Assembly (NCBI RefSeq): GCF_001708965.1
Contig: NZ_LVJW01000003.1
Location: 558,001 to 622,000 of the forward strand
Length of the DNA: 64,000 nucleotides
Direction of reading: 5' to 3'
Source: Candidatus Thiodiazotropha endoloripes
GTDB lineage: Bacteria > Pseudomonadota > Gammaproteobacteria > Chromatiales > Chromatiaceae
Position numbers and translations under genes: made by a program. Position 1 is the first letter of the stretch. Each line of letters starts with the position of its first letter. Positions 5,366 through 62,640 of this stretch are shown one piece after another. The notes under the pieces are model-generated. The model worked only from the letters and a program-made list of their open reading frames with translations. It was not told where the DNA came from and did not search any database.

Positions 5366-5383
5366 GTGCTAACAGGCCCTAAG
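5366..5383 (+). repeat. Copy of dispersed motif GTGYTARCAGGCCCTAAG
   Basis: GTGCTAACAGGCCCTAAG lies between the convergent stops of the HDAC-like gene and the next gene. It matches copies at 6951, 22643, 32834 (inverted), 52658 and 62624. Confidence 0.7.
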
Positions 5384-5388
5384 CAAGA

Positions 5389-6153
5389 TCAGACCCGCAT
5401 CACAGCGACCCGGCTTCCCGAAGTGCCGTGGCGTCGTACTTCAAGAATCATTGCCGGGACCCCGCGCCCCGGATCGATGATCCGTTCGATCGCATACATT
5501 GAACTCAACAGTTTGGGACGGGCATGACGGGAACCGGTGGCTTCCACGACACGCATGTTACCTCCGGCCACGGACTGGTTTACATAGGAGTCGACAACCG
5601 CCACATGTCCTGGACTGCGCCTGACTGAATTGCCATCCATCCAGACCAGCAGATCCCCTTGCTGAATTGTGTTCGGATCGTTCACCGCCCGGTTTGCCTG
5701 GAAGTAGGAGGCGGCTCCGGTGTTTCGAACCGTGTTGTCTGTGTAGTTACGCTTACCACAGGCAATCAGATAGTTGGTGACAAAACCCGAACAATCGATG
5801 CCGAGATGGTCGTCACAGAAGGTCTGCAGGTTGAGTTGATTGATCGTCTGTACTCTATTGGCGCGCACCGCCCACTCCAGAGCCAGTTCATAGTCCCTGG
5901 GTGCACCTTTACCCATTGCCGCATTACGGATTCGGTTTTTGTTCTGGTTGAACCAGATATCACTGCGCGAACCCCTAGAGACAGTCCGGTAATCGCGCAG
6001 CTCTTCCGTGCCCTCATCCCAATCCATCATGAAGTAGTTTCTGAGGGTGACGCTGTGGGTTGTCTCGCGACAGGTTCTTGAGGCCGGGTCATCAACTGCA
6101 GACCTGACCCTGAGACGTCGATATCTTTGCATGAATTCTACAGGTGTCGGCAT
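5389..6153 (-). CDS. NlpC/P60- or CHAP-like putative cysteine peptidase/amidase
   Basis: The 254-residue protein has the two landmarks of the NlpC/P60/CHAP fold: a Cys at the start of a helix in GIDCSGFVTNYL (Cys121) and a His in a strand in SPGHVAVVDSY (His183), with QQGDLLVW between them as in NlpC/P60 proteins. Enzymes with this core cut peptidoglycan peptides or amide bonds. There is no signal peptide and no cell-wall binding repeat, which is odd for a wall hydrolase; it may be exported by another route or act in the cytoplasm. The first ~110 residues match nothing I recognise. It lies 53 bases downstream of a lipoprotein gene on the same strand, so the two may be cotranscribed. The exact family is not settled. 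Confidence 0.6.
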   Translation of the reverse strand: MPTPVEFMQRYRRLRVRSAVDDPASRTCRETTHSVTLRNYFMMDWDEGTEELRDYRTVSRGSRSDIWFNQNKNRIRNAAMGKGAPRDYELALEWAVRANRVQTINQLNLQTFCDDHLGIDCSGFVTNYLIACGKRNYTDNTVRNTGAASYFQANRAVNDPNTIQQGDLLVWMDGNSVRRSPGHVAVVDSYVNQSVAGGNMRVVEATGSRHARPKLLSSMYAIERIIDPGRGVPAMILEVRRHGTSGSRVAVMRV

Positions 6154-6206
6154 GGTGCTATTCCTTTATAACCAGGTTGATGGATCGATGTTTGATCGGT
6201 TCCGCA

Positions 6207-6785
6207 TCAGTGTGGCGGCGTACCGATGCAAGCTCGCTGCTGTGCTTTATCAGCCAGTTGTTGCAACTGCGCTCTGGAAACTCCCTGCTGCTCGATGACA
6301 TCGGTGACGCAGCTCTCAGTCGCGGATACTTTTGCTACGGCCAGGTAGATTGTGGTGACCTGATCCGGCTCATCGGGATTTTCATGGGCATGAATCTCTG
6401 CGATGAGCGCTACGGGTTGAGTCCCGGTGGATGAGTGTGCAATCCGCCACTCAGCCTGTTCACCAAGATGAAACATCTGCCTGGTTACCACCGCCTGATA
6501 ATTGAGGGGGAAGGATTGTTGTGAATCGCTCAGGATCTCAATCGACTTTCTACCTGCGGCAACTTTGCGCAGTATCAGCTGATAACCTGCCGTACCGGGA
6601 CAGAGCTTGTAAGGCGTGCTGTTCGGATCTGTCTGGTCGGTGAATGACTGACAGTTGTTGAGGCTTGTGAAAACAGACTTGTTACCTGAATCCTGATAGG
6701 TGGCAAAGCAGCCGGACAGGATCACTGCCAGGGTGATGGCCGGTATCAGAAATGAGGATTTGCTGTTTTGTATTTTCATCTTCAC
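6207..6785 (-). CDS. Hypothetical lipoprotein
   Basis: This 192-residue protein begins with a lipoprotein signal: basic residues, a hydrophobic run and the lipobox LSGC with the lipidated Cys at 26. The mature part has further Cys residues (NNCQSF, KLCPG, ESCV, RACIG) that could form disulfides, and ends with a helical segment (SRAQLQQLADKAQQRAC). I do not recognise the family. It is probably cotranscribed with the peptidase-like gene 53 bases downstream. Localisation to the outer or inner membrane face follows from the lipobox; function is unknown. Confidence 0.7.
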   Translation of the reverse strand: MKMKIQNSKSSFLIPAITLAVILSGCFATYQDSGNKSVFTSLNNCQSFTDQTDPNSTPYKLCPGTAGYQLILRKVAAGRKSIEILSDSQQSFPLNYQAVVTRQMFHLGEQAEWRIAHSSTGTQPVALIAEIHAHENPDEPDQVTTIYLAVAKVSATESCVTDVIEQQGVSRAQLQQLADKAQQRACIGTPPH

Positions 6786-6950
6786 GCCTCCATGGTTGTG
6801 ATTCTAGATTTCTGCAAAACAGCTTAAAGGTAATTTTTAACAGCGCAGTAGGCAATTTTTATCATTACGGCTATTTACGCACAAAAACGTGATTTGCATT
6901 GAGCAACTGAAAGTTGATCCTAAGGGCGAGCGAAGTGTATTCAATGATTG

Positions 6951-7009
6951 GTGTTAACAGGCCCTATTTCATCGGTTCGCAAATGAACGCAAATAAGAGT
7001 CAAAAAAAC
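6951..7009 (+). repeat. Dispersed motif copy plus AAATGAACGCAAA repeat
   Basis: GTGTTAACAGGCCCTA (6951-6966) is followed by CGCAAATGAACGCAAATAAG (from 6979). The same two modules occur together at 22617-22682, where the second lies in the opposite orientation (TTTGCGTTCATTT). This occupies much of the 297-base gap between the AraC-type and lipoprotein genes; I see no gene there. Confidence 0.6.
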
Positions 7010-7082
7010 ACAGATTGCGGCTATTCACGGTGGTTGGCGTCCATTCCTGGCTTGAATGATGGAGATTGTGTGAGACGGCTGT

Positions 7083-8033
7083 CTACTGTCGAACACTGCC
7101 CGGGGAGACACCAAGCTCTCGTTTGAAGGCCCGGCAGAATGCCGCTTCGGATTGATAGCCGAAGCGTTCCGCGAACACCACCAGAGGTTCCGATGATTCG
7201 AGCAGCTGTGTGCGGGCCATCAGCATACGCCAGCGGGTTACGTAACGCATCGCGGTGTAACCAACCAGATCGGTGAATCGTGCAGAGAATCCTGAGCGGG
7301 ACATTCGCGCCTCCATGGCCAGTGACGTCAGGTTCCACTCCCTTTCCGGATTACGGTGAATCGCTGCAAGGGCTCTGCCTATCTGCTTGTCCCGTAACGC
7401 ATTCAACCAGCCCGGTATGGGGCCGCTGAGTGAGTCGAGCCAGGAGCGAATCGCCTGGATGACCAGAATGTCTGCCAGTCGGGTGATCACCGTTTCACCA
7501 CCGGGACGCAGTTCCCTCGCTTCACGGGTGATCAACTCTAGGGTGTTTTGTATCCAGCTGCTCTCATCCTCTTTCCAGGTATCGATCTTCAATACCTGTG
7601 GCAGCAGGGCTACAACCTGCTGTCCGGCAACATGGTCAAAGCGCACCAGCCCACAGGTCAGCTGGGTCAGCTCACCACTGCCGCCGTGATGCATGATTTC
7701 ATATCGTTCACTCACCGACTCCACTGGTATGTCGAACAGGGGCGTGGTCTGGTGCTGGAGATCACTGCGCACTTCGTGGCCTTCACCATGGGGAACCAGG
7801 GCCAGGCTGCCCTGTTTCAGCAGGCAGGGTTTTTCTCCGGCAACCTCCAGCCAGCACTCACCCCGGGTCACCACATGGAACATCATGTGGCCCTCGAAGG
7901 GTGGCAGGGAGACCCCCCAGGGCGCTTTCAACTCGGAACGGCAGTAGTAGGTGCCGTTCAGTTTCAGCAAATGAAGTGCTTCCCCGATCGGGTCAGACAC
8001 TTCGGCAATTGTCGAATTGGTTTCGCTGGTCAT
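7083..8033 (-). CDS. AraC-family transcriptional regulator with cupin sensor domain
   Basis: The 316-residue product has an N-terminal cupin-type domain (~10-190; APWGVSLPP, FHVVTRGECWLEV, LVPHGEGHEV) and a C-terminal AraC double helix-turn-helix (WNLTSLAMEARMSRSGFSAR, then PLVVFAERFGYQSEAAFCRA with FKRELGVSPG). The cupin is of the type found in AraC regulators of small redox or catabolic genes. The frame extends upstream to 8114, but ATG at 8033 (MTSETNST) fits family lengths. It is divergent from an NmrA-type reductase gene with only 137 bases between them, the classic arrangement of such a regulator and its target. An inverted repeat in that gap (8132-8147) is a candidate operator. Confidence 0.88.
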   Translation of the reverse strand: MTSETNSTIAEVSDPIGEALHLLKLNGTYYCRSELKAPWGVSLPPFEGHMMFHVVTRGECWLEVAGEKPCLLKQGSLALVPHGEGHEVRSDLQHQTTPLFDIPVESVSERYEIMHHGGSGELTQLTCGLVRFDHVAGQQVVALLPQVLKIDTWKEDESSWIQNTLELITREARELRPGGETVITRLADILVIQAIRSWLDSLSGPIPGWLNALRDKQIGRALAAIHRNPEREWNLTSLAMEARMSRSGFSARFTDLVGYTAMRYVTRWRMLMARTQLLESSEPLVVFAERFGYQSEAAFCRAFKRELGVSPGSVRQ

Positions 8034-8131
8034 GGGGTTTTTCGATTTGGACAAGCTGCATATAAATATAGACAAACAGCCATGGTTGGTCTGTGCGTTG
8101 TTACCTAGGATCAACTCATACGCACTAACGC

Positions 8132-8147
8132 AGCGTTTTACAACGCT
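8132..8147. promoter_or_regulatory. Inverted repeat AGCGTT-TTAC-AACGCT, candidate operator
   Basis: A perfect 6-4-6 inverted repeat lies in the gap between the AraC-type regulator and the divergent reductase gene, 23 bases before the reductase ATG. Position suggests an operator; AraC proteins more often bind direct repeats, so another regulator or an mRNA hairpin is possible. Confidence 0.4.
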
Positions 8148-8170
8148 TAACCCTGTAAAGGAGATGGATT

Positions 8171-9016
8171 ATGACCAACAAACCGATACTGATCATTGGC
8201 AAGCATGGCAAAACCGGCAGTCGTGTAGTGCAGCGTTTGCAATCGATGGGCCTGCAGACCAGAGCAGTCTCAAGATCAACGGCTCTGCCATTCGATTGGC
8301 AGCAACGGGAAACCTGGGGCCCGGCTTTGCAAGGTGTTGTCGCTGTCTACGTCACTTACCAGCCGGATCTTGCAATACCTCAGGCGCGGGCAGACATTGA
8401 AGCTTTTACCGCAATGGCAAATGAGGCTGGTGTTGAACAGATCGTGCTGCTCTCGGGTCGGGGTGAAGTCGGTGCCCGGCAGGCGGAGGAGATTGTCATC
8501 AACAGCGGCATCAGCTGGAATATCGTCAGGGCGAGTTGGTTTTTTCAGAACTTCAGTGAGAGTTTCATGATCGACGGGATTCTGCAGGGCGAATTGATAC
8601 TGCCGGCAGGGGATACCCCGGAACCTTTCATCGATGCGGAAGACATTGCCGATGTGGTGGTTGCCTGTCTGACCGATGCAAAACATCGCAATCGGCTGTA
8701 TGAAGTGACCGGGCCTCGCGCCATGACCTTTGCAGATTGTATGGCAGAGCTGTCGCAACTGTTACAGAGACCGGTGAAATATACTCAGGTGCCTGTGGAG
8801 GCCTATCTGGCTGCACTTCAACAGCAGGGTGTTCCCGAGCCGATGCAGTGGTTACTCAAGGAGTTGTTCACTGAGGTTCTTGATGGCAGAAACAGCCAGG
8901 TGCAACCGGGTGTTGAAGAGGCGTTGGCAAGACCGGCGACCGATTTTCAGGTCTATCTGAAACGTATGGTCGACTCGGGGTGTTGGTCCGACGAGCGAGT
9001 GGAACAGGCGGTTTGA
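8171..9016 (+). CDS. NmrA-like NAD(P)-binding oxidoreductase (atypical SDR)
   Basis: The 281-residue protein starts with a dinucleotide-binding Rossmann motif (PILIIGKHGKTGSRVV) and continues with the NmrA/YtfG pattern: VYVTYQPD, EQIVLLSGRGEVG, SWNIVRASWFFQNFSESF, FIDAEDIADVVVACL and YEVTGPRAMTFADCMAEL. Members are NAD(P)H-dependent quinone or sugar-like reductases, or redox sensors without catalysis. The usual SDR YxxxK pair is absent, as in the atypical subfamily. A strong ribosome-binding site (AAGGAGA) precedes the ATG. It is divergent from an AraC regulator that probably controls it. The substrate is not readable. Confidence 0.85.
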   Translation: MTNKPILIIGKHGKTGSRVVQRLQSMGLQTRAVSRSTALPFDWQQRETWGPALQGVVAVYVTYQPDLAIPQARADIEAFTAMANEAGVEQIVLLSGRGEVGARQAEEIVINSGISWNIVRASWFFQNFSESFMIDGILQGELILPAGDTPEPFIDAEDIADVVVACLTDAKHRNRLYEVTGPRAMTFADCMAELSQLLQRPVKYTQVPVEAYLAALQQQGVPEPMQWLLKELFTEVLDGRNSQVQPGVEEALARPATDFQVYLKRMVDSGCWSDERVEQAV

Positions 9017-9141
9017 TGGTCCTTTGACCGCTCTTCTGTACTGCCCCTGACAAGGGGCAGGCAGACCCTGTCCAGCTTGACGAACTGGGCTTCAGGCCGG
9101 AGACTCTTGCAATCGAATGTTCTTATCCTATTGCAGGCCAG

Positions 9142-10050
9142 ATGATTCACCAAATTACCCGCCTCTTTCCTCTATGGGCCGTACTTTTATCTGCGCTTGC
9201 CTATGCCTATCCTGCTGCGTTTGTTGCCTTGAAACCTGGGATCATTCCCCTGTTGGGTCTGGTCATGTTCGGCATGGGAATGACCCTCAGTCTGGAAGAT
9301 TTCAAACGGGTTTTTCAACAACCGAAGATCATCGCTGTCGGGGTGTTGTTACAGTTCGCATTGATGCCTTTGATCGCCTGGCTGATTGCTGAACTGCTTG
9401 CCTTGCCACCCTATCTGATGGCCGGGCTGGTTTTGGTCGGGGCCTGTCCCGGCGGTACCGCCTCCAATGTGGTCTGTTATCTGGCACGGGGTGATGTGGC
9501 CCTCTCGATCACCATGACGACGGTTTCAACCCTGCTGGCGATCATTGCCACGCCGTTGCTTACTTGGCTCTATGTGGGGCAGAAGGTTCCGGTGCCGGTT
9601 GAAAGCATGCTCTGGTCGATTTTCAAGATAGTTCTGTTACCGGTGTCGTTGGGGGTTCTGGTGAATACCCTCTATGGCCGCAGACTCAGACCGATAAAAC
9701 CCCTCTTTCCGTTGATCTCCATTCTCGCCATCGTTCTGATCATCGGTATCGTGGTGGCGTTGAATCAGAGCAACATCGCCCGCATGGGGATGCTGTTGGC
9801 GCTGGCCGTTGTACTGCATAATCTGGCTGGCTTGGCCGGTGGTTACTGGATTGCCAGAGGTTTGGGTTGGGATCGGCGGATCAGCCGTACCCTGGCGATT
9901 GAGGTGGGTATGCAGAATTCCGGCTTGGGGGTTGCGCTGTCGGTTAAGTATTTCTCCGCCGCGGCTGCGCTGCCTGGAGCGATCTTCTCCATTTGGCACA
10001 ATCTGAGCGGTTCCATGCTGGCTGGTTATTGGTCACGACGTGAAAGCTGA
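9142..10050 (+). CDS. Bile acid:sodium symporter (BASS) family transporter
   Basis: This 302-residue, very hydrophobic protein has about nine membrane segments and the BASS signatures ACPGGTASNVVCYLARGDVA and EVGMQNSGLGVAL, which form the sodium and substrate sites at the two crossover helices. Bacterial members import small organic anions such as pantoate, pyruvate or 2-keto acids with sodium; the substrate here is unknown. It ends 17 bases from the convergent thioesterase gene. It stands alone in its direction after the reductase gene (125-base gap). Confidence 0.9.
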   Translation: MIHQITRLFPLWAVLLSALAYAYPAAFVALKPGIIPLLGLVMFGMGMTLSLEDFKRVFQQPKIIAVGVLLQFALMPLIAWLIAELLALPPYLMAGLVLVGACPGGTASNVVCYLARGDVALSITMTTVSTLLAIIATPLLTWLYVGQKVPVPVESMLWSIFKIVLLPVSLGVLVNTLYGRRLRPIKPLFPLISILAIVLIIGIVVALNQSNIARMGMLLALAVVLHNLAGLAGGYWIARGLGWDRRISRTLAIEVGMQNSGLGVALSVKYFSAAAALPGAIFSIWHNLSGSMLAGYWSRRES

Positions 10051-10067
10051 GCGGCCGATTGGCTTCG

Positions 10068-10418
10068 TCAGATGGAAGTTTTATTGCCTCTCTCATCTAG
10101 ACAGACAAAAGTGATGGTGGTGGTGAAGACACTCTCTTCCTCACCGGTTACCGAGTCTTCCGCAAATACCTTGACCCGATAATCCACCGATGAATCACCC
10201 TGTTTACTCTGCTGGATATCGAAGCGCAGGATCACGCCCTCTCTGACACTGCGGTGAAAGGTGACCCGGTCCAGTCCGATGGTGACAAAGTGGCGCCCCG
10301 GGTAGTCATGAACCGCAGCGATCCAGGCATACTCGTCGACCCATTTCAGCAGGTTGCCTCCGAACAGATAGCCATACTGATTGAGGTGCTGGGGCAGTAC
10401 CAGTTTATGGTTTTCCAT
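10068..10418 (-). CDS. Acyl-CoA thioesterase, hotdog fold
   Basis: The 116-residue protein has the hotdog thioesterase core: VLPQHLNQYGYLFGGNLLKWVDE, the helix and catalytic acidic residue of the YciA/BFIT class, then FVTIGLDRVTFHRSVREG. Such enzymes hydrolyse acyl-CoAs in the cytoplasm. The frame extends to 10472, but ATG at 10418 overlaps the upstream stop as TGATG, typical of translational coupling, so I chose it; the longer form would overlap the neighbour by 55 bases. It forms a two-gene operon with the NTF2-like gene. Confidence 0.85.
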   Translation of the reverse strand: MENHKLVLPQHLNQYGYLFGGNLLKWVDEYAWIAAVHDYPGRHFVTIGLDRVTFHRSVREGVILRFDIQQSKQGDSSVDYRVKVFAEDSVTGEEESVFTTTITFVCLDERGNKTSI

Positions 10419-10822
10419 CAGACCTGTAATCCGGGAGGTGGTGTGGGTGAGTTCTGATGCATCACCAGGCACCAGCCCTGATCACCCTTGCGATAGATGT
10501 TGGTGGCGTAGACCGGGTGAGGGGGCGTTTCCGGGTCCGCTTTGACCAGCTCTTCGACCAGGTGTATGGCTACGTTATCAGTCTCGATCCAACTCAGGTG
10601 TTTGATCCCGATATCAAGCTTTACATCCTCATTCAACAGGGCGCCCCAAGCGGTCTCGATGGCCGCTCTGCCCCGTTGGGCCGGCATCATCGGCAGCAGG
10701 CAGAGAATTTCGTCACTCTCTTCCCACACGGCCATCATAGCGCCCAGGTCCCCATCATCGATGGCATCGTAGTAGGCATCTTCGGCATCTTGGGGTGTGT
10801 TGTACGGAGGGGCCATGGTCAT
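10418..10822 (-). CDS. NTF2-like/SnoaL-like domain protein (YybH-type)
   Basis: The 134-residue protein shows the NTF2-like pattern of a helix-rich start (TPQDAEDAYYDAIDDGDLGAMMAVWEESDEILC) followed by strands (RGRAAIETAWGALL, VAIHLVEELV, ATNIYRKGDQGWCLVMHQNS). This fold is used by ketosteroid isomerase-like enzymes and binding proteins; the sequence does not say which. It is translationally coupled to the thioesterase gene, so a role in acyl-thioester or lipid metabolism is possible but unproven. Confidence 0.8.
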   Translation of the reverse strand: MTMAPPYNTPQDAEDAYYDAIDDGDLGAMMAVWEESDEILCLLPMMPAQRGRAAIETAWGALLNEDVKLDIGIKHLSWIETDNVAIHLVEELVKADPETPPHPVYATNIYRKGDQGWCLVMHQNSPTPPPGLQV

Positions 10823-11120
10823 TTCCTGTTGTTATCGGTTGTCTGATGGGTGGGATTCTACGGGAATAACCCATCATTAGGATAGGGGGCAGGAACAACC
10901 CGTCTGCCCGTTCATGTAAGCCAGCTTGGCCATGGCATGTTGTCTGTTATGATGCTGTTGGTGATCAGCTGAGCCAGAGGCTCACCTGGCCGGGTGGTAG
11001 CGGTTATCTGATCGGTATTTCACACCATTTCCTTTGTCAGATACTGATCACGTATTCCCTATCTCATCGGCTTTCCGTATCATCTGGCCTCTTTCAGGCC
11101 AGTAGTAACTTACAGATCAG

Positions 11121-13370
11121 ATGACTGACGATATCGATCACAGCTTAGAGGGAATCGAAAGGGTTCCCCTCAATGAGTTTACCGAGAAGGCATACCTGAA
11201 TTACTCCATGTATGTGATTCTCGACCGCGCCCTGCCGAACATCGGTGATGGATTGAAGCCGGTACAGCGGCGGATTGTCTATGCCATGTCAGAGCTGGGT
11301 TTGAGTGCGGGTGCCAAGTTCAAAAAGTCAGCCCGTACTGTTGGTGATGTGCTTGGTAAGTTCCATCCCCATGGGGACAGCGCCTGCTATGAGGCGATGG
11401 TGCTGATGGCGCAGAACTTCTCCTATCGCTATCCGCTGGTGGATGGGCAGGGTAACTGGGGCTCCCCGGATGACCCGAAGTCTTTCGCCGCGATGCGTTA
11501 CACGGAATCGAAGCTGACGGTCTATGCCCAGACCCTGCTTTCGGAGCTGGGACAGGGGACTGTGGAGTGGACGCCCAATTTTGACGGCACCCTGAAGGAG
11601 CCCAAGATACTACCCGCGAGATTGCCGAATGTGCTGCTCAATGGCTCTTCGGGTATCGCTGTGGGCATGGCCACGGATATCCCGCCGCACAACCTGCGTG
11701 AAGTTGCCAATGCCTGCATCCATCTGCTGGAGTCGCCGAAGGCCACCCTGGAAGATCTGATGACCTATATCCCCGGGCCGGACTACCCCACCGAGGCGGA
11801 GATCGTGACACCGGCGGCGGAGCTGGCCAAGGTCTATGCAACCGGGCATGGCTCGATCCGTATGCGCGCCCGTTTCGACCGGGAGAATGGGGATATCATC
11901 GTGACGGCATTGCCGCATCAGGTATCAGGGGCGAAGATTTTGGAACAGATCGCCGCTCAGATGCAGGCCAAAAAGCTGCCGATGGTGGAGGATCTGCGCG
12001 ATGAATCGGATCATGAAAATCCCACCCGTCTGGTGATCGTACCCCGCTCCAACCGGGTCGATGTGGCGCGACTGATGTCCCATCTGTTCGCCAGCACCGA
12101 TCTGGAGCGCAGCTACCGGGTCAATCTGAATCTGATCGGTATCGATGGCCGTCCGGCGGTCAAGGATCTGCGCTCGCTGCTGGTGGAGTGGCTCAGTTTT
12201 CGTACCGAAACCGTACGCCGGAGACTGCAGTATCGCCTTAATGAGGTGCTTGACCGGCTGCATATTCTTGAAGGCTACCTGGTCGCCTTTCTCAATATCG
12301 ATGAGGTTATTGCGATCATTCGCTACGAGGATGATCCGAAGGCCGAACTGATCAAACGCTTCTCCCTCTCAGATATTCAGGCAGAAGCCATCCTCAATCT
12401 TCGCTTGCGTAACCTGGCGAAGTTGGAGGAGATGAAGATCAAGGGTGAACAGGAGGAGTTGGAGAAAGAGCGTAAGACGCTGGAAAAACTGCTGGGATCC
12501 AAACAGCGTATGCGCACCCTGATCCGAAAGGAGTTACAGGCGGATGCGGATAAATATGGTGATGACCGCCGCTCACCCATCGTTGAGCGTGAGGCGGCGG
12601 AGGCCCTCGATGAGACCGACCTGACCCCCAGTGAGGCGGTCACAGTGGTGCTTTCGGAGATGGGTTGGGCACGTACTGCCAAGGGACATGAGATCGATCC
12701 AACCGGCCTGAACTATCGGGCCGGGGACGGCTTTCTGGCGGCTACCCGCCTGCGCAGCAATCAACAGGCGGTGTTTCTCGACTCCAACGGTCGCAGCTAC
12801 TCGCTGCCGGCGCATACCCTGCCATCGGCCCGCAGTCAGGGTGAGCCTCTGACAGGACGGCTCTCTCCGGCGACCGGTGCGACCTTCCGTGCGGTGATTG
12901 GTGGTGACAGTCAGCAGGAGTATCTGTTGGCCTCGGACGCTGGTTACGGATTCCGGGTCGGTCTGTCGGATATGCTGGCGAAAAACAAATCGGGCAAGGC
13001 GCTGCTGACCCTGCCGAAGGGGGCTCAGGTTCTGATGCCTGAGCTGATTGCCGAGGTGGAGACGGATCGCGTCGTGACGATCACCAATGAGGGGCGGATG
13101 TTGGTCTTTCCGGTCGGCGAGCTGCCTAAGCTCTCGAAGGGCAAGGGTAACAAGATCATCTCAATCGCACCGAAGCGAGTGGCCGCCAGGGAGGAGTTCG
13201 TGGTGGCGATCGCCGTGGTTCCGAAGGGGGGCAGTCTGACTGCCCACGCGGGCAAGCGCTATATTGTGTTGAAACCGGGCGACCTGGACGGGTATCAGGG
13301 CGAGCGGGGACGACGCGGAGGGAAACTTCCCAGAGGCTTCCAGCGTGTCGATCGGGTTGAGGTCAGCTGA
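11121..13370 (+). CDS. parC: DNA topoisomerase IV subunit A
   Basis: ParC (749 residues) with ParE decatenates daughter chromosomes by ATP-dependent double-strand passage. The N-terminal breakage-reunion domain shows [29 protein letters not shown] and the active-site Tyr127 in AAMRYTES. The C-terminal part (~500-749) is the shorter beta-pinwheel of ParC ([15 protein letters not shown]) and lacks the GyrA-box QRRGGKG, which separates it from GyrA. The quinolone-resistance positions are Ser87 and Glu91, the wild-type residues. parE is not next to it. The 298 bases upstream hold no gene. Confidence 0.96.
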
Positions 13371-13540
13371 GATCGACAATACAGAAACCGAATTAAGAGG
13401 TCATACATCGACTGGAAACTACCCTGTTGGTGTGAACTGGCTGGAAACATAACCTCTTGAATCCAAGTGTTTTGCGGGTGTTTATCCATACGGCGCATAG
13501 GGCCAGGGCTGATGAACCACCGTTTTAATCAAGATTGGAC

Positions 13541-13570
13541 TTGGAGAGTTGCTCCATTGGTCGTTATAAT
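13541..13570 (+). promoter_or_regulatory. Probable sigma-70 promoter of tRNA-Leu
   Basis: TTGGAG (13541-13546), an 18-base spacer and a consensus TATAAT (13565-13570) lie 77 bases before the tRNA. Confidence 0.5.
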
Positions 13571-13647
13571 GGTCAGTTCTCAGCTGTGGTATTTGGGCTG
13601 GATTGCTTGGTAATCCCCTTGGGCCGGTTGGGAATCATACGAAAGCA

Positions 13648-13732
<85 letters not shown>

Positions 13733-13828
13733 TTTCAACTGCGGTTGCCAATGGCGATCGACAGGAAATTTCCAGTTTTTCCTTAATTCAGATATTTAGT
13801 GACAGATAAGGCTGTCAGGAGAAAATAC

Positions 13829-15118
13829 ATGCAAGTTTCGGTGGAATCGGGAGAAGGGCTTGAGCGACGTCTTACCGTCGAGTTGCCTGCAGAGAAGATC
13901 GATGCGGAAGTGACAAAGCGCCTACAGCAGATTGGCCGAACCGCCAAACTGGATGGTTTTCGACCCGGTAAGGTGCCGATGAAACTGCTGCGTCGCAACT
14001 ACGGTGGACAGGTGTTGCAGGAAGTCTACGGCCAGATGATCGAATCCAGTTATCAGGAGGCGATTCAACAGGAGAAACTGCAGCCCGCAGGGATGCCTAA
14101 AATCGAACCTGGCGAGTCCAGTGAAGATGATGGTCTGTTCCGCTATGTGGCGACCGTTGAGGTGATGCCTGAGATTACCCTCAACCCGCTCTCCGGGGAG
14201 GTCAAGCGTCCGGTGGCCGAGATCGCCGATCAGGATGTGGATGAGATGCTGCTGAAGCTGCGCAAACAGCGCGTAACCTGGAGCAGTGTGGAGCGTGACG
14301 CGGCTGAAGGCGATCAGGTGAAGATCAGTTTCAAAGGCACGATCGATGGAGAGGCCTTTGAGGGTGGCAGCGCCGAGAACGTGGATCTGGTACTGGGTTC
14401 CGGTCGCATGATCGAAGGTTTCGAATCGGCCCTGATCGGCAAGTCGAAAGGTGATAAATCATCGATCGATCTGAAATTCCCCGAAAATTACCGGGTGGAA
14501 GAGCTGGCCGATAAACCGGTAACGTTCGAAGTAGAGATCAACGACATCTCCGAAGAGGTGCTGCCTGAGATCGATGACGAATTTGCCAAGGAGTTCGGTG
14601 CCGAAGAGGGTGTCGACAAGCTGATGAGCGATGTCCGTGAGAACATGACACGTGAACTTGCACAACGGATTGAGGCTCGTATTAAGAACCAGGCGATGGA
14701 TCTGTTGACTGAGCAGAATCCGATCGATGTTCCCTCAGCAATGGTCGATCAGGAGATCGAGGCGCTGCAGAATCAGACCCGTCAGCAGATGGCCCAGGGC
14801 GCTGGATCGTTTGAGTTGCCCCGGGAGATGTTTGAAGACCAGGCAAAAAAACGGGTTACTCTGGGCCTGCTTATTGGTGAAATCATTAAGCAAAACGACA
14901 TTCAGGTCGATAACGATCGTGTGAAGAAGAGAATTGAAGAGTTTGCCGCCAGTTACGAGAAGCCTGAAGAGGTGGTCAACTACTACTACAGCGACGAAAA
15001 GCAGCTGGCCACCGTGCAGAATGTCGTAATGGAAGATCAGGTGGTAGACTGGGTACTGGAACAGGTTACCATCACTGAAGAGCAGACAACCTTTGCCGAA
15101 CTGACGGAGCAGGGTTGA
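13829..15118 (+). CDS. tig: Trigger factor, ribosome-associated chaperone/PPIase
   Basis: The 429-residue protein has the three trigger factor domains: ribosome-binding N-domain (1-~115, LDGFRPGKVPMKLLRRNYG holds the ribosome-binding signature), FKBP-like PPIase domain (~150-245, EGDQVKISFKGTIDGEAF, GSGRMIEGFE) and a helical C-domain. It binds the ribosomal exit tunnel and shields nascent chains. The frame opens at 13799, but ATG at 13829 has AGGAG 12 bases upstream and gives the family length (432 in E. coli). It starts the tig-clpP-clpX-lon block, with clpP 22 bases downstream and probably cotranscribed. Confidence 0.96.
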   Translation: MQVSVESGEGLERRLTVELPAEKIDAEVTKRLQQIGRTAKLDGFRPGKVPMKLLRRNYGGQVLQEVYGQMIESSYQEAIQQEKLQPAGMPKIEPGESSEDDGLFRYVATVEVMPEITLNPLSGEVKRPVAEIADQDVDEMLLKLRKQRVTWSSVERDAAEGDQVKISFKGTIDGEAFEGGSAENVDLVLGSGRMIEGFESALIGKSKGDKSSIDLKFPENYRVEELADKPVTFEVEINDISEEVLPEIDDEFAKEFGAEEGVDKLMSDVRENMTRELAQRIEARIKNQAMDLLTEQNPIDVPSAMVDQEIEALQNQTRQQMAQGAGSFELPREMFEDQAKKRVTLGLLIGEIIKQNDIQVDNDRVKKRIEEFAASYEKPEEVVNYYYSDEKQLATVQNVVMEDQVVDWVLEQVTITEEQTTFAELTEQG

Positions 15119-15140
15119 AAGGAGAGGGGAAAAATAGACC

Positions 15141-22616: not shown

Positions 22617-22682
22617 GTAAATAAGAGTCACGAATTGTATTGGTGTTAGCAGGCCCTAAAACCGTTTGCGTTCATTTACGGA
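22617..22682. repeat. Dispersed motif copy with AAATGAACGCAAA module
   Basis: GTGTTAGCAGGCCCTAA (22643-22659) is flanked on the left by CGTAAATAAGAGTC and on the right by TTTGCGTTCATTTACGGAC, which is the inverted form of the AAATGAACGCAAA module seen at 6981. It fills most of the ppiD-fabI gap. Confidence 0.6.
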
Positions 22683-22691
22683 CTTACCAAA

Positions 22692-23523: not shown

Positions 23524-23840
23524 GGAAAATTCCTTACTGGCGTCGTTGTTTAGTGAATTAACAGGAGCGGTAGGATAGCTCTCCTGTCTAATTGGGACGT
23601 CTTATTGTTAAGAGTACTTACCGGAAAACCCAACCAGCACAAATCATAGCATGCTGTGGCTATGGCCACATCTCAGCGACCCATGACCTGATCTAACAAG
23701 GGCCTGTTTTTGTTACAGGATCACTAAAAAGTGCTGTCCGGTCCCTGCCGTTCCATTGACTCCAATTGGCTAACCCGGCAACCTTACGCCATTAACATTG
23801 CAGATTGGATCCATTAAACCTGGATCACAGGAGAACATTC

Positions 23841-25709: not shown

Positions 25710-25717
25710 TGCAAGTG

Positions 25718-25918
25718 TAGTGTCCTATATAAATCATACATTTAGACGAGCCTATCATGAGTTGGCGTTTAAACCGCTTAGCTTGCCCTGCGGAAAGCCA
25801 CTCAAGCCACGATTGCGGCGTTGCACACCTTGGAAAGGGAACAGCCATTCCCTGCGGGCTGCGCCTTGCACTCGTGGCTTGAGTGGCTTTCTAAATGCAC
25901 GCTTTATATAGGACACTA
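25718..25918. mobile_element. MITE-like element, 201 bp, with 16-bp perfect terminal inverted repeats
   Basis: TAGTGTCCTATATAAA (25718-25733) and its exact complement (25903-25918) bound the element; similarity continues inward to CATTTAG on both sides. The ends start and stop with TA, consistent with a TA target duplication as made by IS630/Tc1-type transposases. Inside is a second perfect 19-base inverted repeat, AAAGCCACTCAAGCCACGA (25794-25812) with its complement at 25872-25890, and a small hairpin GGGAA-CAGCCA-TTCCC. It encodes no credible protein. It lies in the gap between the binding protein and first permease gene and ends 6 bases before the permease ATG. Confidence 0.85.
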
Positions 25919-25924
25919 GACTAG

Positions 25925-32833: not shown

Positions 32834-32856
32834 CTAGGGCCTGTTAATCTTGGCCC
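32834..32856 (-). repeat. Dispersed motif copy overlapping the dsbB stop
   Basis: On the minus strand ATTAACAGGCCCTAG supplies the last DsbB codons (Ile-Asn-Arg-Pro-stop). GGGCC and GGCCC at 32837-32856 can also pair as a hairpin between the convergent dsbB and DUF815 genes. Confidence 0.6.
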
Positions 32857-51906: not shown

Positions 51907-51907
51907 G

Positions 51908-52615: not shown

Positions 52616-52636
52616 CGGTCGAATCGGAGAAAAGAC

Positions 52637-52674
52637 CCTAGGGCCTATTAGATTTAGTGTTAACAGGCCCTAAG
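52637..52674. repeat. Dispersed motif copy forming a hairpin between dnaQ and fnr
   Basis: CCTAGGGCCT (52637-52646) pairs with AGGCCCTAAG (52665-52674) around a loop containing GTGTTAAC. This is the copy where both halves of the palindromic motif are visible. It lies between the convergent dnaQ and fnr stops and may terminate both. Confidence 0.65.
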
Positions 52675-53433: not shown

Positions 53434-53705
53434 GTAATCGCTCCAGCATGCGGGGTGCTTTGATATCAACGCCTGGTAAAGACGGTTTTCGCGTCAGGGG
53501 TATCATTTCCTTTCCGAGATGACCTCAATTTCCTCAATGGCGTTACAGCTCCCAGAGGTTGATGTTTAAACCGCTGGAGCCACCTCTACCGCATTCCCGG
53601 CAAACAGCCTGTCGGAGCGGATAGCTTGTCTCCCCATCCTACAACCACATCCTTGTCTCTCTACTATTTTGTGAACCAGCACACGGCCTATTTTTCCAGA
53701 AATTC

Positions 53706-53719
53706 TTGATGTTGATCAA
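53706..53719. promoter_or_regulatory. Exact FNR/Anr box TTGATGTTGATCAA
   Basis: TTGAT-N4-ATCAA matches the FNR consensus at all ten fixed bases. It lies 273 bases from the fnr start, between fnr and the end of the sulfur globule gene; no plus-strand gene follows nearby, so autoregulation of fnr is the simplest reading. Confidence 0.75.
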
Positions 53720-53782
53720 GTCGTTTTGGTTTTTTTATTACTTTGGGTCATTGCAGGAGCCGTATCCAGGGCCGTTGGGAGC

Positions 53783-53814
53783 AAAAAAAAGCCGGCCTGA
53801 AGGCCGGCTTTTCT
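53783..53814 (-). terminator. Rho-independent terminator of the sulfur globule gene
   Basis: AGCCGGCCT (53790-53798) and AGGCCGGCT (53801-53809) pair around a 2-base loop (or shorter stem). On the minus strand a TTTTTTTT run follows; on the plus strand TTTT also follows, so it works in both directions. Confidence 0.92.
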
Positions 53815-53828
53815 GCACATGGGTAGGC

Positions 53829-54179
53829 TTATTGAGCCGGTGCAGCTGGTGCAGGTGCTGCAGCTGGAGGCGCAGGATAGCCGTATGGAGCACCGTAAGG
53901 AGCGCCATAAGGAGCACCATAACCGTATGGAGCGCCATAACCATAAGGTCCATAGCCACCATAGTCACGGTAGTAGTTGTTACCCCGGCCATAGCCAGAA
54001 CCGCGGGCATTACCACTCATGCCGAAGCTGAAATCACCGGAGCCATCACCCCAACCATCGCCCCAACCGTCATTGTTCCAGCCGCGGTTACCATAGCCAG
54101 GACCGCCCCACCAGGCAGAGGCACTGGTAGACGCAGCTACAAGAGCAGCGATGCTCAGAACTTTAGCAAATTTAGTCAT
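53829..54179 (-). CDS. Sulfur globule protein (Gly/Tyr/Trp-rich, exported)
   Basis: The 116-residue protein has a signal peptide ending at ASTSASA and a mature part of Gly, Tyr, Trp, Asn and Pro repeats: [36 protein letters not shown] and a [13 protein letters not shown] tail ending in Ala/Pro. The WGDG and DFSF-MSG segments match the sulfur globule envelope proteins of purple sulfur bacteria and sulfur-oxidising symbionts, which coat periplasmic sulfur granules. GAGAGGAAG precedes the ATG. It has its own terminator. It is monocistronic, as expected for a highly expressed structural protein. It marks the organism as a sulfur oxidiser that stores sulfur. Confidence 0.88.
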
Positions 54180-56993
<2,814 letters not shown>

Positions 56994-57043
56994 GCCTGAC
57001 CCGTCATCTTCCTGTAAAATGCAGCGGTGACAATAACGTTTAA

Positions 57044-58360
<1,317 letters not shown>

Positions 58361-58535
58361 TCTGACTCACATCCTATCCTCCCTGGTTGGGCAGGGCGTC
58401 ACTGGGTATGCTATAGGTTGTGCTCAGGGCGCCGGGAGTGATCCGGTCCAGGGAGGCATGGTTCTCCGCCACTCTGAATCGGTGAACATTCAGGGCTGCC
58501 CTGAATCCATACACATTCACATCCTTGACTGATCG

Positions 58536-58832
58536 ATGCGCATCATTATTGCCATTTTGGTTGCCTTGCTGCTGTTTCTGCAATATCGCCTCTGGGTGGG
58601 CGAGGGGAGTCTTGCCGAGGTTAATAATCTGAAGGATGAGATTGGTGCCTTACAGCAGGAGCTGATCGGATTGCGTAAACGAAATCATGCCCTGCAGGCC
58701 GAAGTGGAAGATTTGCGCAGTGGCCAGGCCGCCATCGAGGAGCGCGCCCGCAGTGAGCTTGGCATGATTAAAGAGGGGGAGACCTTCTATCAGGTAATCA
58801 CCCCCTCAGGGACTGAGACCAATGAGCGATAG
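58536..58832 (+). CDS. ftsB: Cell division protein FtsB
   Basis: FtsB (98 residues) is a single-pass membrane protein of the divisome, partner of FtsL and FtsQ. It has an N-terminal membrane segment (IIIAILVALLLFLQYRLWVG), then a coiled coil (VNNLKDEIGALQQELIGLRK, NHALQAEVEDLRSG) and the ending RSELGMIKEGETFYQVI. Position between eno and ispD is typical. It overlaps ispD by 11 bases. Confidence 0.94.
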   Translation: MRIIIAILVALLLFLQYRLWVGEGSLAEVNNLKDEIGALQQELIGLRKRNHALQAEVEDLRSGQAAIEERARSELGMIKEGETFYQVITPSGTETNER

Positions 58833-59526
58833 CTGCTGGGCGATAGTACCGGCCGCCGGTGTCGGACGACGCATGGGTGGGGCGGTACCAAAACAGTATC
58901 TGGATCTGTGTGGCCGTAAGATTATCGATCTCACCCTGGAGAGGTTGTTGAATCACCCGCGTATCTCTGGTGTCTGTGTCGCCTTGTCGGCCGAGGATGG
59001 CTACTGGGAAAGCTGTGAACACCATAATCACCCCAATGTGATTCGGGCCACCGGTGGTGCAGAGCGCTACCACTCAGTGTGCAATGCTCTGGCAAGTCTC
59101 GCCGAATTGGCCGATGAGCATGATTGGGTGCTGGTGCATGACGCCGCCCGCCCCTGTCTTTCTGCCGCCGATCTGGACCGCTTGATCGAGACGCTGCAGA
59201 GTCATCCGGTCGGTGGGCTGCTGGGTATCCCGGTCGCTGACACCCTGAAACGGGTCGATGATTTCAACCAAATCGATGCCACAGTCTCCCGGGAGCGTCT
59301 CTGGCGCGCCTTTACCCCTCAGATGTTTCGGCTTGGCCTGTTGAACCGCTGCCTGGAGCAGGCGATTGAGAGTGGCGCAGCTGTTACCGATGAGGCGAGT
59401 GCTGTGGAGCTGTCAGGCCATCGGCCTTTGCTGGTGGAGGGTGACGGCACCAACATCAAAATCACTCATCAACACGATCTGCTGCTGGCCGAGCACTATC
59501 TCAAGCTGGTCAGAGATGAGGAGTGA
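58822..59526 (+). CDS. ispD: 2-C-methyl-D-erythritol 4-phosphate cytidylyltransferase
   Basis: IspD (234 residues) makes CDP-methylerythritol in the non-mevalonate isoprenoid pathway. The CTP-binding start VPAAGVGRRMGGAVPKQYL, the strand WVLVHDAARPCLSAADL, GGLLGIPVADTLKRV and TDEASAVELSGHRPLLVEGD are family marks. It overlaps ftsB. ispF lies downstream but is separated by an opposite-strand gene, unlike E. coli where ispD and ispF overlap. Confidence 0.96.
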   Translation: MSDSCWAIVPAAGVGRRMGGAVPKQYLDLCGRKIIDLTLERLLNHPRISGVCVALSAEDGYWESCEHHNHPNVIRATGGAERYHSVCNALASLAELADEHDWVLVHDAARPCLSAADLDRLIETLQSHPVGGLLGIPVADTLKRVDDFNQIDATVSRERLWRAFTPQMFRLGLLNRCLEQAIESGAAVTDEASAVELSGHRPLLVEGDGTNIKITHQHDLLLAEHYLKLVRDEE

Positions 59527-59531
59527 TCCGT

Positions 59532-60785
59532 TTACAGCGCAAGCAGATCACGCAGTTCACGGATCTGTTCCCGGGCATTTTCAATGATGCCGATCGAATG
59601 TCTGGGGGTAAGTTTGCCCAGCGCCAGTTTATGAAACGCGGGTACCAGGTCGAGACGGGGTAGTCTGGCCATCGCCGGAGTACCGACAAAGGCGTGCAGT
59701 TGGGCGATCACCACCAGATCCACATAGTCCGGTTCGTGACTGATATCCTCCATCCAGTCCTCTGCATGCAGTGCGGACTGAACAAAGTAGTCCGGAAACT
59801 CCCATTTCCGCAATACCATCGCGCCGACTTCGCCTTTCAGATTGTTCAGCACCCGGTCAAGCAGTTCGGGGTTTTCGGCAAGTTCTGGTTTGCTGCGCGC
59901 GGCGCCGATGATGGCCAGCGCACCGATGTCGTGGAGTAGCCCGCAGAGCAGGGCCTGGTCTGTGGCGAGTCCCGGGGTGACATTGGCCAGTTCATGACAG
60001 ATCGGTGCCACATAGCTGACATGTTTCCAGAGTCTCAGCATCCGTTGCTGAAGTATCTTTGAACGGCTTTGAAACAGTTTCCCCAAGGCAAAACTGATCA
60101 CCAGGTTATGGGTCACCGAGCGTCCCAGCCGGGTGACCGCATCGGGTAGGTTGTCGATCGGTTGCTTACCCCGGTAGGCAGCACTGTTGACCACACTGAT
60201 CACCCGGGCAGCCACTGTGGGGTCCGCCTGAACTACATGGGCGATATCTTCGCTATCGGAGTTGCTGTCATTGATCACCTTGGCGATGCGCATGGTGATA
60301 TCCGGCATACTGGGCAGTTCCAGGGAGTTGTTCTGCACCGCTTCATGGAACTCCCAATAGAGTTCATCTTCCGGCCCTTCACTGTCCTGCAACTCGATGG
60401 TGTTGTTCGAGCGTTGATTGACCACCGGCGGCAGCCGTTTGATCGCATCGTAGAGCTCTCGTGGAATACTCAACAGGTCAACTGCGGTCAGACTGTCTAT
60501 GGAGACTTCACTGGGGGTTTTTTCCGCCAGTGCAACCAGGCTGCAGGGTTGATCCGCTTTACAGACGATCTGTTTGCCGTCATTGAAACTGACCCGGACT
60601 TCCCCGGCCATCAGGTAGAAGATCTGCTCGTTCGCCTCGCCGGCTACAGCGATGCGGGTATCCGCGTTGCAATGTTCAATATGAGTTTCAGATAGAACAT
60701 AGTTCTGCACCCGTTTCGGCAGGTGTCTCAGTATCTCGATCTTCTTGACCCTGTTTTGAGTCACTGCGGTTACACGTTGAATCAT
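59532..60785 (-). CDS. HDOD-domain protein with N-terminal cyclic-nucleotide-binding-like domain
   Basis: The 417-residue protein has a cNMP-binding-like beta-barrel (~20-118, EQIFYLMAGEVRVSFNDG, SLVALAEKTPSEV) and an HDOD domain (~150-345, LELPSMPDITMRIAKVI, DPTVAARVISVVNSAAYRG, LLCGLLHDIGALAI, ALHAEDWMEDI). HDOD domains are HD-type signalling modules, usually without phosphodiesterase activity, linked to c-di-GMP or motility signalling. This one is inserted between ispD and ispF. The barrel lacks a clear PRAAT-type cyclic-nucleotide cassette, so ligand binding is uncertain. Confidence 0.88.
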   Translation of the reverse strand: MIQRVTAVTQNRVKKIEILRHLPKRVQNYVLSETHIEHCNADTRIAVAGEANEQIFYLMAGEVRVSFNDGKQIVCKADQPCSLVALAEKTPSEVSIDSLTAVDLLSIPRELYDAIKRLPPVVNQRSNNTIELQDSEGPEDELYWEFHEAVQNNSLELPSMPDITMRIAKVINDSNSDSEDIAHVVQADPTVAARVISVVNSAAYRGKQPIDNLPDAVTRLGRSVTHNLVISFALGKLFQSRSKILQQRMLRLWKHVSYVAPICHELANVTPGLATDQALLCGLLHDIGALAIIGAARSKPELAENPELLDRVLNNLKGEVGAMVLRKWEFPDYFVQSALHAEDWMEDISHEPDYVDLVVIAQLHAFVGTPAMARLPRLDLVPAFHKLALGKLTPRHSIGIIENAREQIRELRDLLAL

Positions 60786-60986
60786 CTACTGGTTGCTCGA
60801 TCTATTTAAATTTAATCCCTGGCGGTTGGCATGAGGCAGAATCGAAATATACCCGATAGGCTGGCAATCCTGCCTGCTCCTGGCGGAGATCTTCAATCGC
60901 CAGGTTAAATGTTGCTACAAAGCGTACAATGCTGTTTATTTATCGACCCGATCGGATAACTCTTAAGCAGCCAGGGTGAAAAAATT

Positions 60987-61469
60987 ATGCGTATAGGACA
61001 GGGTTATGATGCTCACCGTTTCGAGTCCGGCTCCCCGTTGGTGCTCGGTGGGGTCGAGGTGCCACACGATCAGGGCCTGAAGGCCCATTCCGATGGGGAT
61101 GTGCTGATTCATGCGCTTTGTGATGCTCTACTTGGTGCGGCTTGCCTGGGTGACATCGGGCGGCACTTTCCCGATAACGACCCAGCCTATGCAGGCATTG
61201 ACAGCCGGGAACTGCTTCGTCAGGTCATGCAGCAACTGCAGGAGCTGGGCCTCAAGCTTGCCAATGCGGATATGACCATCGTTGCTCAGAAACCCAAGCT
61301 GTCACCCTATATCGATGAGATGAGGTCCCTGTTGGCCGGGGATCTGCAAACCAATCTCGATCGGGTCAACATCAAGGCCACCACCACCGAGGGTATGGGT
61401 TTTACCGGTCGGGGGGAGGGCATTGCCGCACTGGCCAGCGTACTGCTGGTGGAAAAAACCAGTGAGTGA
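60987..61469 (+). CDS. ispF: 2-C-methyl-D-erythritol 2,4-cyclodiphosphate synthase
   Basis: IspF (160 residues) closes the cyclodiphosphate in the isoprenoid pathway. The zinc ligands are in [10 protein letters not shown] (Asp and His) and [19 protein letters not shown] (His), with [18 protein letters not shown] and [20 protein letters not shown] near the end. ATG at 60987 follows a 201-base gap after the HDOD gene. It overlaps the start of truD by 8 bases. Confidence 0.96.
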
Positions 61470-62523
61470 TCAATCCTGGATAACCCTGGCGCAGATGCCC
61501 TACGCTCATGGCAGTCCCGTTGGCGGTGGTGTGATCAGATCCTGCGCTGATGATTTTCAGGTGGATGAAGAGCTCGGTTTCCTGCCGGATGATGAGGGGG
61601 AGCACCTGCTGGTTCAGATCAGAAAAAGAGAGACCAATACCCAGTGGCTTGCGGGCCAGCTGGCGCGTCTGGCCGGGATCGACAGAAAGGATGTGGGTTT
61701 CGCCGGTTTGAAAGACCGTCATGCGGTGACCACTCAGTGGTTCTCACTGGGGATGGCGGGTAAGCCTGAGCCTGACTGGCATGCCCTGGACGACGATCTG
61801 ATCGAAGTGCTGGCAGTCCATCGGCACAAAAAGAAGCTGCGCCGAGGTAACCTGTGGGGTAACCGTTTCGTACTCAGAATCCGGCAACTCAGTGGTGCTC
61901 AGGAGGCCATTGAAGCGCGTCTCCTGCAGTTGCAGGGAGCTGGAATGCCCAACTATTTCGGAGAGCAGCGTTTTGGCCATGATTACAGTAACCTGGATCA
62001 GGCGAATCGCCTGTTCTCGCCATCCAGGCCGCGACTCAATCGATCGTTACGCGGGCTGATTATTTCAGCAGCCAGATCGCAGCTGTTTAACCAGGTTCTG
62101 GCTACCCGAATCGAACAGGGAAACTGGAACAGTCCGATACCAGGTGACTATTTTCAACTGGATGGCAGTCGGGGCTGTTTTGCAGACCATGAAGAGGAGC
62201 CCGATCGGCTGGTCAGCCGCTGTGCATCACTGGATATACATCCGACCGGTCCGCTCTGGGGGCGTGGCCGGAGTCTGGTCAAACAGGCGGCAGAGAGTCT
62301 GGAAGGGCAGGTGCTGGCCCCCTTTGAGCTGTGGCGAAATGGCCTGGAACATGTAGGATTACAACAGGAGCGGAGGCCGATGAGAGTCGCTCTGAACGGC
62401 TTGGAGTGGCAGTTTCTTGAGGAGGGGGATCTGGAGCTGAGGTTCTTTCTGCCAGCCGGTTGTTATGCCACAGCCATGTTGCGTGAACTGCTTGTCTACG
62501 AACTTCCTGCAGTCCAGGAGTAA
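61462..62523 (+). CDS. truD: tRNA pseudouridine(13) synthase
   Basis: TruD (353 residues) makes pseudouridine at tRNA position 13. It has the catalytic Asp in [18 protein letters not shown], plus [20 protein letters not shown] and [23 protein letters not shown] at 61462 (SDQSW...) gives the usual length and overlaps ispF by 8 bases, coupling the two. In E. coli surE follows truD; here it does not. Confidence 0.94.
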
Positions 62524-62623
62524 CTACAGATTTAGTTTGAATAACAAATAGTTGCAGTCATTCATTAAGTCTGTATTACCCTGAATACTCGGGGGTGGTA
62601 AAAGAGGTTCTAAAATATAGGAT

Positions 62624-62640
62624 TGTTAACAGGCCCTAAG
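62624..62640 (+). repeat. Dispersed motif copy before the 347-residue gene
   Basis: TGTTAACAGGCCCTAAG abuts AAGGTG, the ribosome-binding site of the next gene. It fills part of the 128-base gap after truD. Confidence 0.65.

Follow-up and report, generated by a model that had tools for sequence, protein, structure and literature searches.

In the 64,000-nucleotide stretch of the genome of the clam symbiont Candidatus Thiodiazotropha endoloripes analysed here (the window; contig NZ_LVJW01000003.1, positions 558,001 to 622,000), an earlier note had drawn attention to a short motif dispersed at gene borders. Our best reading, which we hold at a probability of roughly three in four, is that the motif copies trace back to a folded 269-bp transposable element, on which slippage of lagging-strand synthesis leaves polar scars. 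By its letters, the full element is a miniature inverted-repeat transposable element (MITE) of IS5 type with ends TAGGGCCTGTTAACAC, a TA target duplication, and a predicted three-way hairpin. Most copies in the genus are probably deletion scars of this element, namely 22-bp palindromes, 33-bp forms, and lone ends, a conclusion that comparison among genomes supports well.

The element, its forms, and its relatives

The 16-mer GTTAACAGGCCCTAAG (up to two mismatches) occurs at 137 places in the whole source genome (G000; 82 on the plus and 55 on the minus strand), whereas the same pattern written backwards occurs once. This rejects chance occurrence, and the dispersed repeat family proposed for the window thus extends to the whole genome. 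The motif is present in all 22 Candidatus Thiodiazotropha genomes of our genus sample, at 20 to 232 copies per genome, and GTGTTAACAGGCCCTA (up to one mismatch) was found in 38 of 274 genomes of a class-wide sample that includes the source genome. A scan for the exact 33-mer found it in 12 stretches, of which 11 are from Ca. T. endoloripes and one is from a Sedimenticola metagenome-assembled genome. The copies are intergenic, as proposed: only 2 of 64 33-bp copies lie inside called genes, which make up 83% (G000) and 78% (G016) of the analysed sequence (1.25 Mb of G000, 0.80 Mb of G016, 0.22 Mb of G010, and 0.04 Mb of G007, which also served for the controls below). The gene calls come from a simple hexamer script rather than a standard program.

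We defined the forms from an alignment of 71 copies of AACAGGCCCTA (up to one mismatch), whose rows include chance hits. Form A is the 22-bp palindrome TAGGGCCTGTTAACAGGCCCTA, which the earlier note had pieced together from two halves and which exists as such at G000:C3:5531-5552 and 272039-272060. Form B is 33 bp long and reads TAGGGCCTATTGGATTMGTGTTAACAGGCCCTA; form C measures about 269 bp and has form-B-like sequence at both ends of a palindromic core. The remaining form consists of lone ends.

Form C has the features of a MITE. Its terminal inverted repeats pair along 32 columns to make an outer stem (94.7% of cells across 16 elements), and its 269 bp are taken up by hairpins, with no transposase gene of its own. 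The target duplication is TA at clean filled/empty pairs, with exceptions at 5531, 272039, 27217, and 396878. At G016:C7:794737 and 673798, G016 has the element plus one TA that are absent from G000, and 33-bp forms carry the same duplication at G016:C7:474037, G000:C3:563349, and G000:C3:113661 (the last against G010). At G016:C7:867187, the G000 allele is TG and the G010 allele is TA. We also noted an element end 65-205 bases from the contig start in nine G007 contigs (C12, C14, C16, C18, C23, C24, C25, C26, and C27); because assemblies break at full elements, draft genomes may contain more of them than are counted.

The ends are shared with autonomous IS5-family transposons. In genome G150, TAGGGCCTGTTAACACTAA stands at either end of an 805-bp element whose open reading frame encodes an IS5-family transposase of 251 aa. 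This protein scores 226.5 bits against NF033580 (cut-off 110) and contains DUF4096 and DDE_Tnp_1 domains; the 269-bp element has the same ends and differs from this family in lacking the transposase gene. The autonomous relative presumably belongs to the IS427-like subgroup. A plasmid search for similar DNA gave five records with partial core matches. The best plasmid match (E = 3) lies at a frameshifted Polaromonas plasmid gene annotated as IS5 family, both ends of which fit. With one query, 130 aa of the Polaromonas protein, 2 of the 22 genus genomes (G006 and G012) gave IS5-like proteins, flanked by ends of the same kind. The phage search for similar DNA returned no match. In Rfam, the full element gave two weak, chance-level matches and none above the gathering score, and the window gave nothing at the motif, with only three tRNAs above the gathering score. 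A literature search by motif letters and by topic, with ISfinder and most subscription papers outside its scope, found no earlier description of the element; the motif letters led to a single, unrelated microRNA paper.

The prokaryotic MITEs treated in the available text of a review (Correia, ERIC, and QMITE2; PMC10969869) are likewise short, non-autonomous, and intergenic, with inverted-repeat ends, a target duplication, variable copy number, and ends common to an autonomous element. The 269-bp element differs from them in its very constant length and covarying three-way fold, and in that most Thiodiazotropha copies are probably collapsed polar scars; the text of the review contains neither "lagging" nor "deletion."

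Length and fold extend well beyond the genus. Ten elements from nine genomes of nine other families, hand-picked for paired ends in the class-wide GTGTTAACAGGCCCTA list, measure 268-270 bp in nine cases and 287 bp in one, and are 65-86% identical to the Thiodiazotropha copy in the same orientation. As single-stranded DNA, the element has a predicted folding energy of -99.1 kcal/mol, compared with -40.6 on average for shuffles (z -15.4). In these ten and six genus elements together, a 92-pair structure derived from the same 16 sequences pairs 95.6% of cells (shuffles 82.3), with 51 pairs changed on both sides (shuffles 25.2) and a covariation score of 0.398 (shuffles 0.144; slid structures at most 0.090). 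None of 500 shuffles, which ignore relatedness, reached the observed pairing, two-sided changes, or covariation score. Covariation, in a form that is not tree-aware, thus lends the predicted fold strong support, and the paired changes may reflect either selection or the correction of imperfect palindromes by template switching. Tentatively, we consider it possible that this is a gammaproteobacterial mobile element kept as a folded single strand that would collapse when copied on the lagging strand, its fold persisting by either of these routes. Such a class-wide element with a conserved fold poses a second question beside that of the scars.

Judged by comparison between genomes, insertion appears to take place at TA, mostly in intergenic DNA and often within a stop codon. 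The border TA lies inside a stop codon in 20 of 92 elements (64 of form B, 21 two-ended of form C, and 7 of form A), compared with 964 of the 25,829 TA dinucleotides that lie outside gene bodies (P = 2e-10, with shared copies counted twice). Insertion at the TA of a stop codon leaves TAG, so the protein is unchanged. By eye, no conserved T-run follows the motif in 71 printed flanks, which speaks against a reading as intrinsic terminator.

Probable scars at orthologous sites and their orientation

Comparison between genomes places full elements and short forms at the same sites, from which we infer that the former gave rise to the latter. At G000:C3:1873170, G000 has a 33-bp form and G016 a complete element; the junction falls within GCCCT, which is found at the inner left and the outer right of the element, so that in the predicted fold it lies at direct repeats flanking the hairpin, as expected of slippage. 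The orthologous sites hold other short remnants in G008, G010, and G007 and almost nothing in G012. The 22-bp palindrome at G000:C3:399595 likewise corresponds to a complete element in G016 (G016:C7:693791); TGTTAACA is its own reverse complement and is therefore a direct repeat at both element ends. A lone end at G000:C3:309958 corresponds to a full element at G016:C7:603863.

The scars are oriented with replication. Orientation was scored on all places matching the 33-mer with up to three mismatches (88 in G000, 57 in G003, and 27 in G015), and only copies with T as first base were kept because full-element ends begin with C. In G000, 33 places were dropped by first base and four more on contigs C7 and C9, whose replichore was unplaced; one of the remaining 51 copies lies between the last positive and the first negative skew stretch, so that 50 were scored, together with 14 in G003 and 8 in G015. 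Replichores in G000 follow GC skew (on C3, positive as far as 1.68 Mb and negative 1.85 Mb onwards; on C6, negative up to 0.72 Mb and positive 1.33 Mb onwards); dnaA lies at C6:1.215 Mb. Those of G003 and G015 were drawn from dnaA and a terminus assumed half-way, and 4-kb test stretches agree in sign in 10 of 12 and 7 of 8 cases. The 33-bp copies run along the leading strand in 46 of 50 cases in G000 (P = 4e-10 for this genome alone), 13 of 14 in G003, and 8 of 8 in G015, altogether 67 of 72 (P = 6e-15). In G002, G007, G009, and G020, 16 of 17 copies match the local GC-skew sign of their own 3 kb; 13 of 30 loci there begin with C and were excluded.

Other forms served as controls in the analysed sequence, where G016 was placed by skew (positive in 16 of 16 windows) and G010 and G007 only by reverse collinearity with G000. 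Counted as concordant to discordant, 33-bp forms with T first stand at 37:3, lone short ends at 52:6, and lone ends with an intact terminal repeat at 13:3, whereas no polarity is seen in ends near an element core (19:23) or in the symmetric 22-bp forms (9:8). G000 taken alone gives 24:2 for 33-bp forms with T first, 8:4 for those with another first base, 23:3 for short lone ends, 7:2 for intact-repeat lone ends, 6:6 for core-linked ends, and 4:3 for 22-bp forms. Scars therefore depend on the replicated strand as slippage predicts, and the controls do not; the evidence for this is comparative. Two-ended elements lie 10 with the leading strand and 11 against it, which rejects inheritance of the scars' orientation from that of the element itself.

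Transcription can be separated from replication in 64 33-bp copies collected on looser terms (up to six mismatches, any first base). Copies whose flanking genes are both lagging (12:0) or both leading (14:0) are concordant in 26 of 26 cases. Orientation therefore follows replication rather than transcription, and a link to transcription is rejected by this concordance with same-way genes of either direction. Within the same set, copies inside a gene count 2:0, and the one copy without a left gene 0:1.

Several observations weigh against this picture. Five of the 72 scored copies are discordant (G000 27217, C6:1267104, 817150, and 866345; G003 3618965), 33-bp-like copies with a first base other than T stand at 15:6, and the looser set has 53 concordant and 11 discordant copies. 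All but one of the latter lie in convergent (16:5) or divergent (9:5) gaps; some of these more loosely defined copies may be ends of larger remnants. In the control and gene-context tallies, orthologous copies were counted once per genome and so repeatedly. There is one clean pair of full element and 33-bp form, a second (340448 / 630653) being weak, with unlike right flanks. At the four exceptional loci named above, the empty alleles lack TA (TG, TC, or none). Of 44 inner repeats in surviving elements, only 8 read AGGGCC, yet most scars, 28 of them, read TAGGGCC; either perfect repeats were lost fastest or the junction base came from the outer copy.

Proposed slippage on the lagging strand and rival explanations

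Plasmid tests have led to the view that deletion of DNA with hairpins happens mostly on the lagging strand, and Trinh and Sinden (1991, cited in PMC5295012) reportedly found that structure-driven mutation prefers this strand. In the process that we propose, a non-autonomous 269-bp MITE of IS5 type would insert at TA dinucleotides and, once single-stranded, fold so that its terminal repeats of 32-34 bp pair as a long outer stem around two inner hairpin arms. Replication would expose the lagging-strand template and let the element fold. At a rightward fork, this template would be the plus strand, and copying would enter the element from the right, at its terminus-side end. The lagging-strand polymerase would copy the terminus-side terminal repeat and stall at the start of the inner arm. 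The AGGGC repeat is located at this junction of outer stem and inner arm; the nascent 3' end carrying the inner AGGGC copy would re-pair with AGGGC(C) at the far (left) end, which is proposed to be free because its stem partner has already been copied, and the inside would be lost. The product would be a 33-bp scar with the whole terminus-side terminal repeat and 7-8 bp of the other end, which is the majority form observed. Deletion between the self-palindromic TGTTAACA at both ends would leave the symmetric 22-bp scar, and deletions running past the origin-side end would leave lone ends.

It is the polarity that points to the strand. The end retained in the scars is the one first reached by lagging-strand synthesis, and had leading-strand synthesis slipped in this way, the left repeat would be the one kept. 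Provided that slippage produced the scars, the lagging strand would be favoured about 13 to 1. The remnants, nearly all oriented with replication, therefore seem to record an error made mainly in copying one strand. A published model, as far as its accessible text sets it out, likewise has the polymerase pause at the hairpin base after the first repeat and re-anneal at the second (PMC4134008). The hairpin-driven lagging-strand deletion of Viguera et al. 2001, as summarized in the same partial source, shares with the scars the direct repeats at the hairpin foot, the deleted inside, and the lagging preference; in that account it is known from plasmids and test-tube templates, while here a natural element appears to preserve its traces at dozens of chromosomal sites in several species.

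That a transposase makes the scars, by failed or one-ended excision tied to fork passage, seems unlikely to us. It would suit the IS5-family ends and the partly untidy excision sites, but the single 130-aa query detected an IS5-like protein in no more than 2 of the 22 genus genomes, all of which have scars; moreover, a transposase has no need of the short direct repeat at which the junction falls. We judge it very unlikely that a Y1 transposase (IS200/IS605 or RAYT type) mobilizes the 33-bp form in its own right, as single-stranded DNA on the lagging-strand template and in one orientation per replichore. Such a polarity would be expected of single-strand transposition, Y1 transposase genes occur in 21 of the 22 genus genomes, and REP-type repeats are linked to such enzymes in the part of the literature consulted (PMC3116915). 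However, the ends match a DDE transposon of the IS5 family, a full element and a 33-bp form share a site, and lone ends are equally polar despite having no hairpin partner. G021 has no Y1 match, yet carries 84 motif copies. Around both Y1 genes of G000 (1.3-1.6 kb) and around one of the two in G016 (1.5 kb), no motif was found with up to three mismatches.

The same observations bear on repetitive extragenic palindromes (REP) and REPINs, which the accessible part of PMC3116915 describes, together with RAYT, as short, palindromic, extragenic, and repeated; some REP tandem arrays are, according to the same partial text, oppositely oriented on the two chromosome sides. The motif is indeed a short repetitive extragenic palindrome. 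No copy was found beside a RAYT (Y1) gene in the 1.3-1.6 kb around the inspected genes of G000 and G016, and this, with the DDE-type ends and the TA duplication, rejects a REP element. The earlier note, which took the short form for half of a REP-like element, was thus right that it is part of something larger and not right about the REP likeness; in the Thiodiazotropha element, the short forms appear to derive from a longer one.

An oriented motif kept by selection, as a signal of chromosome polarity or of termination, is a highly improbable account. It would agree with the strong polarity, with the position at gene borders, and with a lone end in the window (62624-62638) that is nearly unchanged in four genomes. 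Against it, most sites differ even between G000 and G016, copy number varies from 20 to 232, orientation ignores transcription, and a conserved T-run, as expected of a terminator, is missing from the printed flanks.

On the tentative reading given above, of a folded single strand that collapses on the lagging strand, the scars would record fork direction naturally and across the genome. They would also document, outside the laboratory, that structure-driven deletion is biased more than tenfold towards the lagging strand. The element would offer a test of the lagging-strand idea in nature, with dozens of independent events per genome and built-in controls (intact elements and symmetric scars) in uncultured symbiont chromosomes, and replication direction could be read from repeats. 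It would also serve as a warning that short "REP-like" repeats may be collapsed transposons.

Copies in the window and other repeats

The six main motif copies of the earlier note are all where it had placed them, on the plus strand at 5366-5383, 6951-6966, 22643-22659, 52658-52674, and 62624-62640 and on the minus strand at 32834-32848, and all lie in gene gaps or at gap edges according to the rough gene caller. In the window by itself, the 12-mer AACAGGCCCTAA (up to two mismatches) has 9 occurrences where shuffles average 3.97, and 1 of 100 shuffles reached 9, an excess that is only suggestive. A "looser relative" at 23697-23720 has two mismatches within the 12-mer and was left uncounted. 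Delimited by form, the copies are as follows.

5349..5381, plus strand: putative 33-bp scar (form B), three mismatches to TAGGGCCTATTGGATTMGTGTTAACAGGCCCTA; equals G000:C3:563349-563381
6951..6966, plus strand: lone end GTGTTAACAGGCCCTA with no partner arm; the orthologous gap in G016 is too divergent for clean alignment
22643..22658, plus strand: lone end GTGTTAGCAGGCCCTA, one mismatch
32835..32849, minus strand: doubtful copy GATTAACAGGCCCTA, two mismatches; the only minus-strand copy among the six
52639..52672, plus strand: putative 34-bp scar (form B plus one extra base) with both arms, between two convergent genes
62624..62638, plus strand: lone end TGTTAACAGGCCCTA, 14 bp ahead of the next called gene (62652)

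Two of these are two-armed. The stem claimed at 52637-52674 is real and corresponds to the form at 52639-52672, which only 1 of 200 shuffles folds as well as; the form at 5349-5381 had been missed and folds more weakly (36 of 200 shuffles as good). At the latter, the left TA of the scar plus G (5349-5351) makes the stop codon TAG of the upstream gene, which ends at 5351 by the rough caller. The site is empty in G016 (GCA-CTAAGC), a clean 31-bp difference with duplication of TA (or CTA), and the upstream gene ends there in TAA. The gap of 52639-52672 holds only short remnants in G016 and G010 (GCTAACAGACCC and GTGATAACAGCGCC) and a longer element in G003, G009, and G020; other genomes are without one.

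In the gap of the lone end at 22643, G016 has a complete 268-bp element about 80 bp to the right (G016:C7:867187-867454). The stretch around 62624-62638 is almost identical in G000, G016, G010, and G007, which makes this lone end an old remnant. At the place of 32835-32849, G010 and G007 have a two-ended element of the motif family, and the G000 letters, of doubtful status, may be read either as right flank or as a left-end remnant. In these G010 and G007 orthologues, and in G016:C7 near 498400, a palindrome of the type GGTGGGGCATGGCCCCACCCTAC ... GTAGGGTGGGGCCATGCCCCACC recurs, also inside or beside elements of the motif family.

The module AAATGAACGCAAA does adjoin the copies at 6951 and 22643, as the earlier note had it, but is a separate repeat: only 2 of its 47 copies (15-mer, up to two mismatches, analysed sequence) lie within 100 bp of the motif, which rejects it as a part of the element. 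The two copies near the motif are those in the window, at 6975-6995 and 22667-22690; the module is part of a dispersed palindromic family of its own (GTCCGCAAATGAACGC ... GCGTTCATTTGCGGAC). In the region of G000:C3:203358 and at G016:C7:467200-467560, an insertion that distinguishes the two genomes is flanked by CCCCTCTCCC...GGGAGAGGGG-type repeats. Within the window, nested inverted repeats at 25714-25922 (33 nt 88% and 24 nt 96% complementary) are possibly another small palindromic element.

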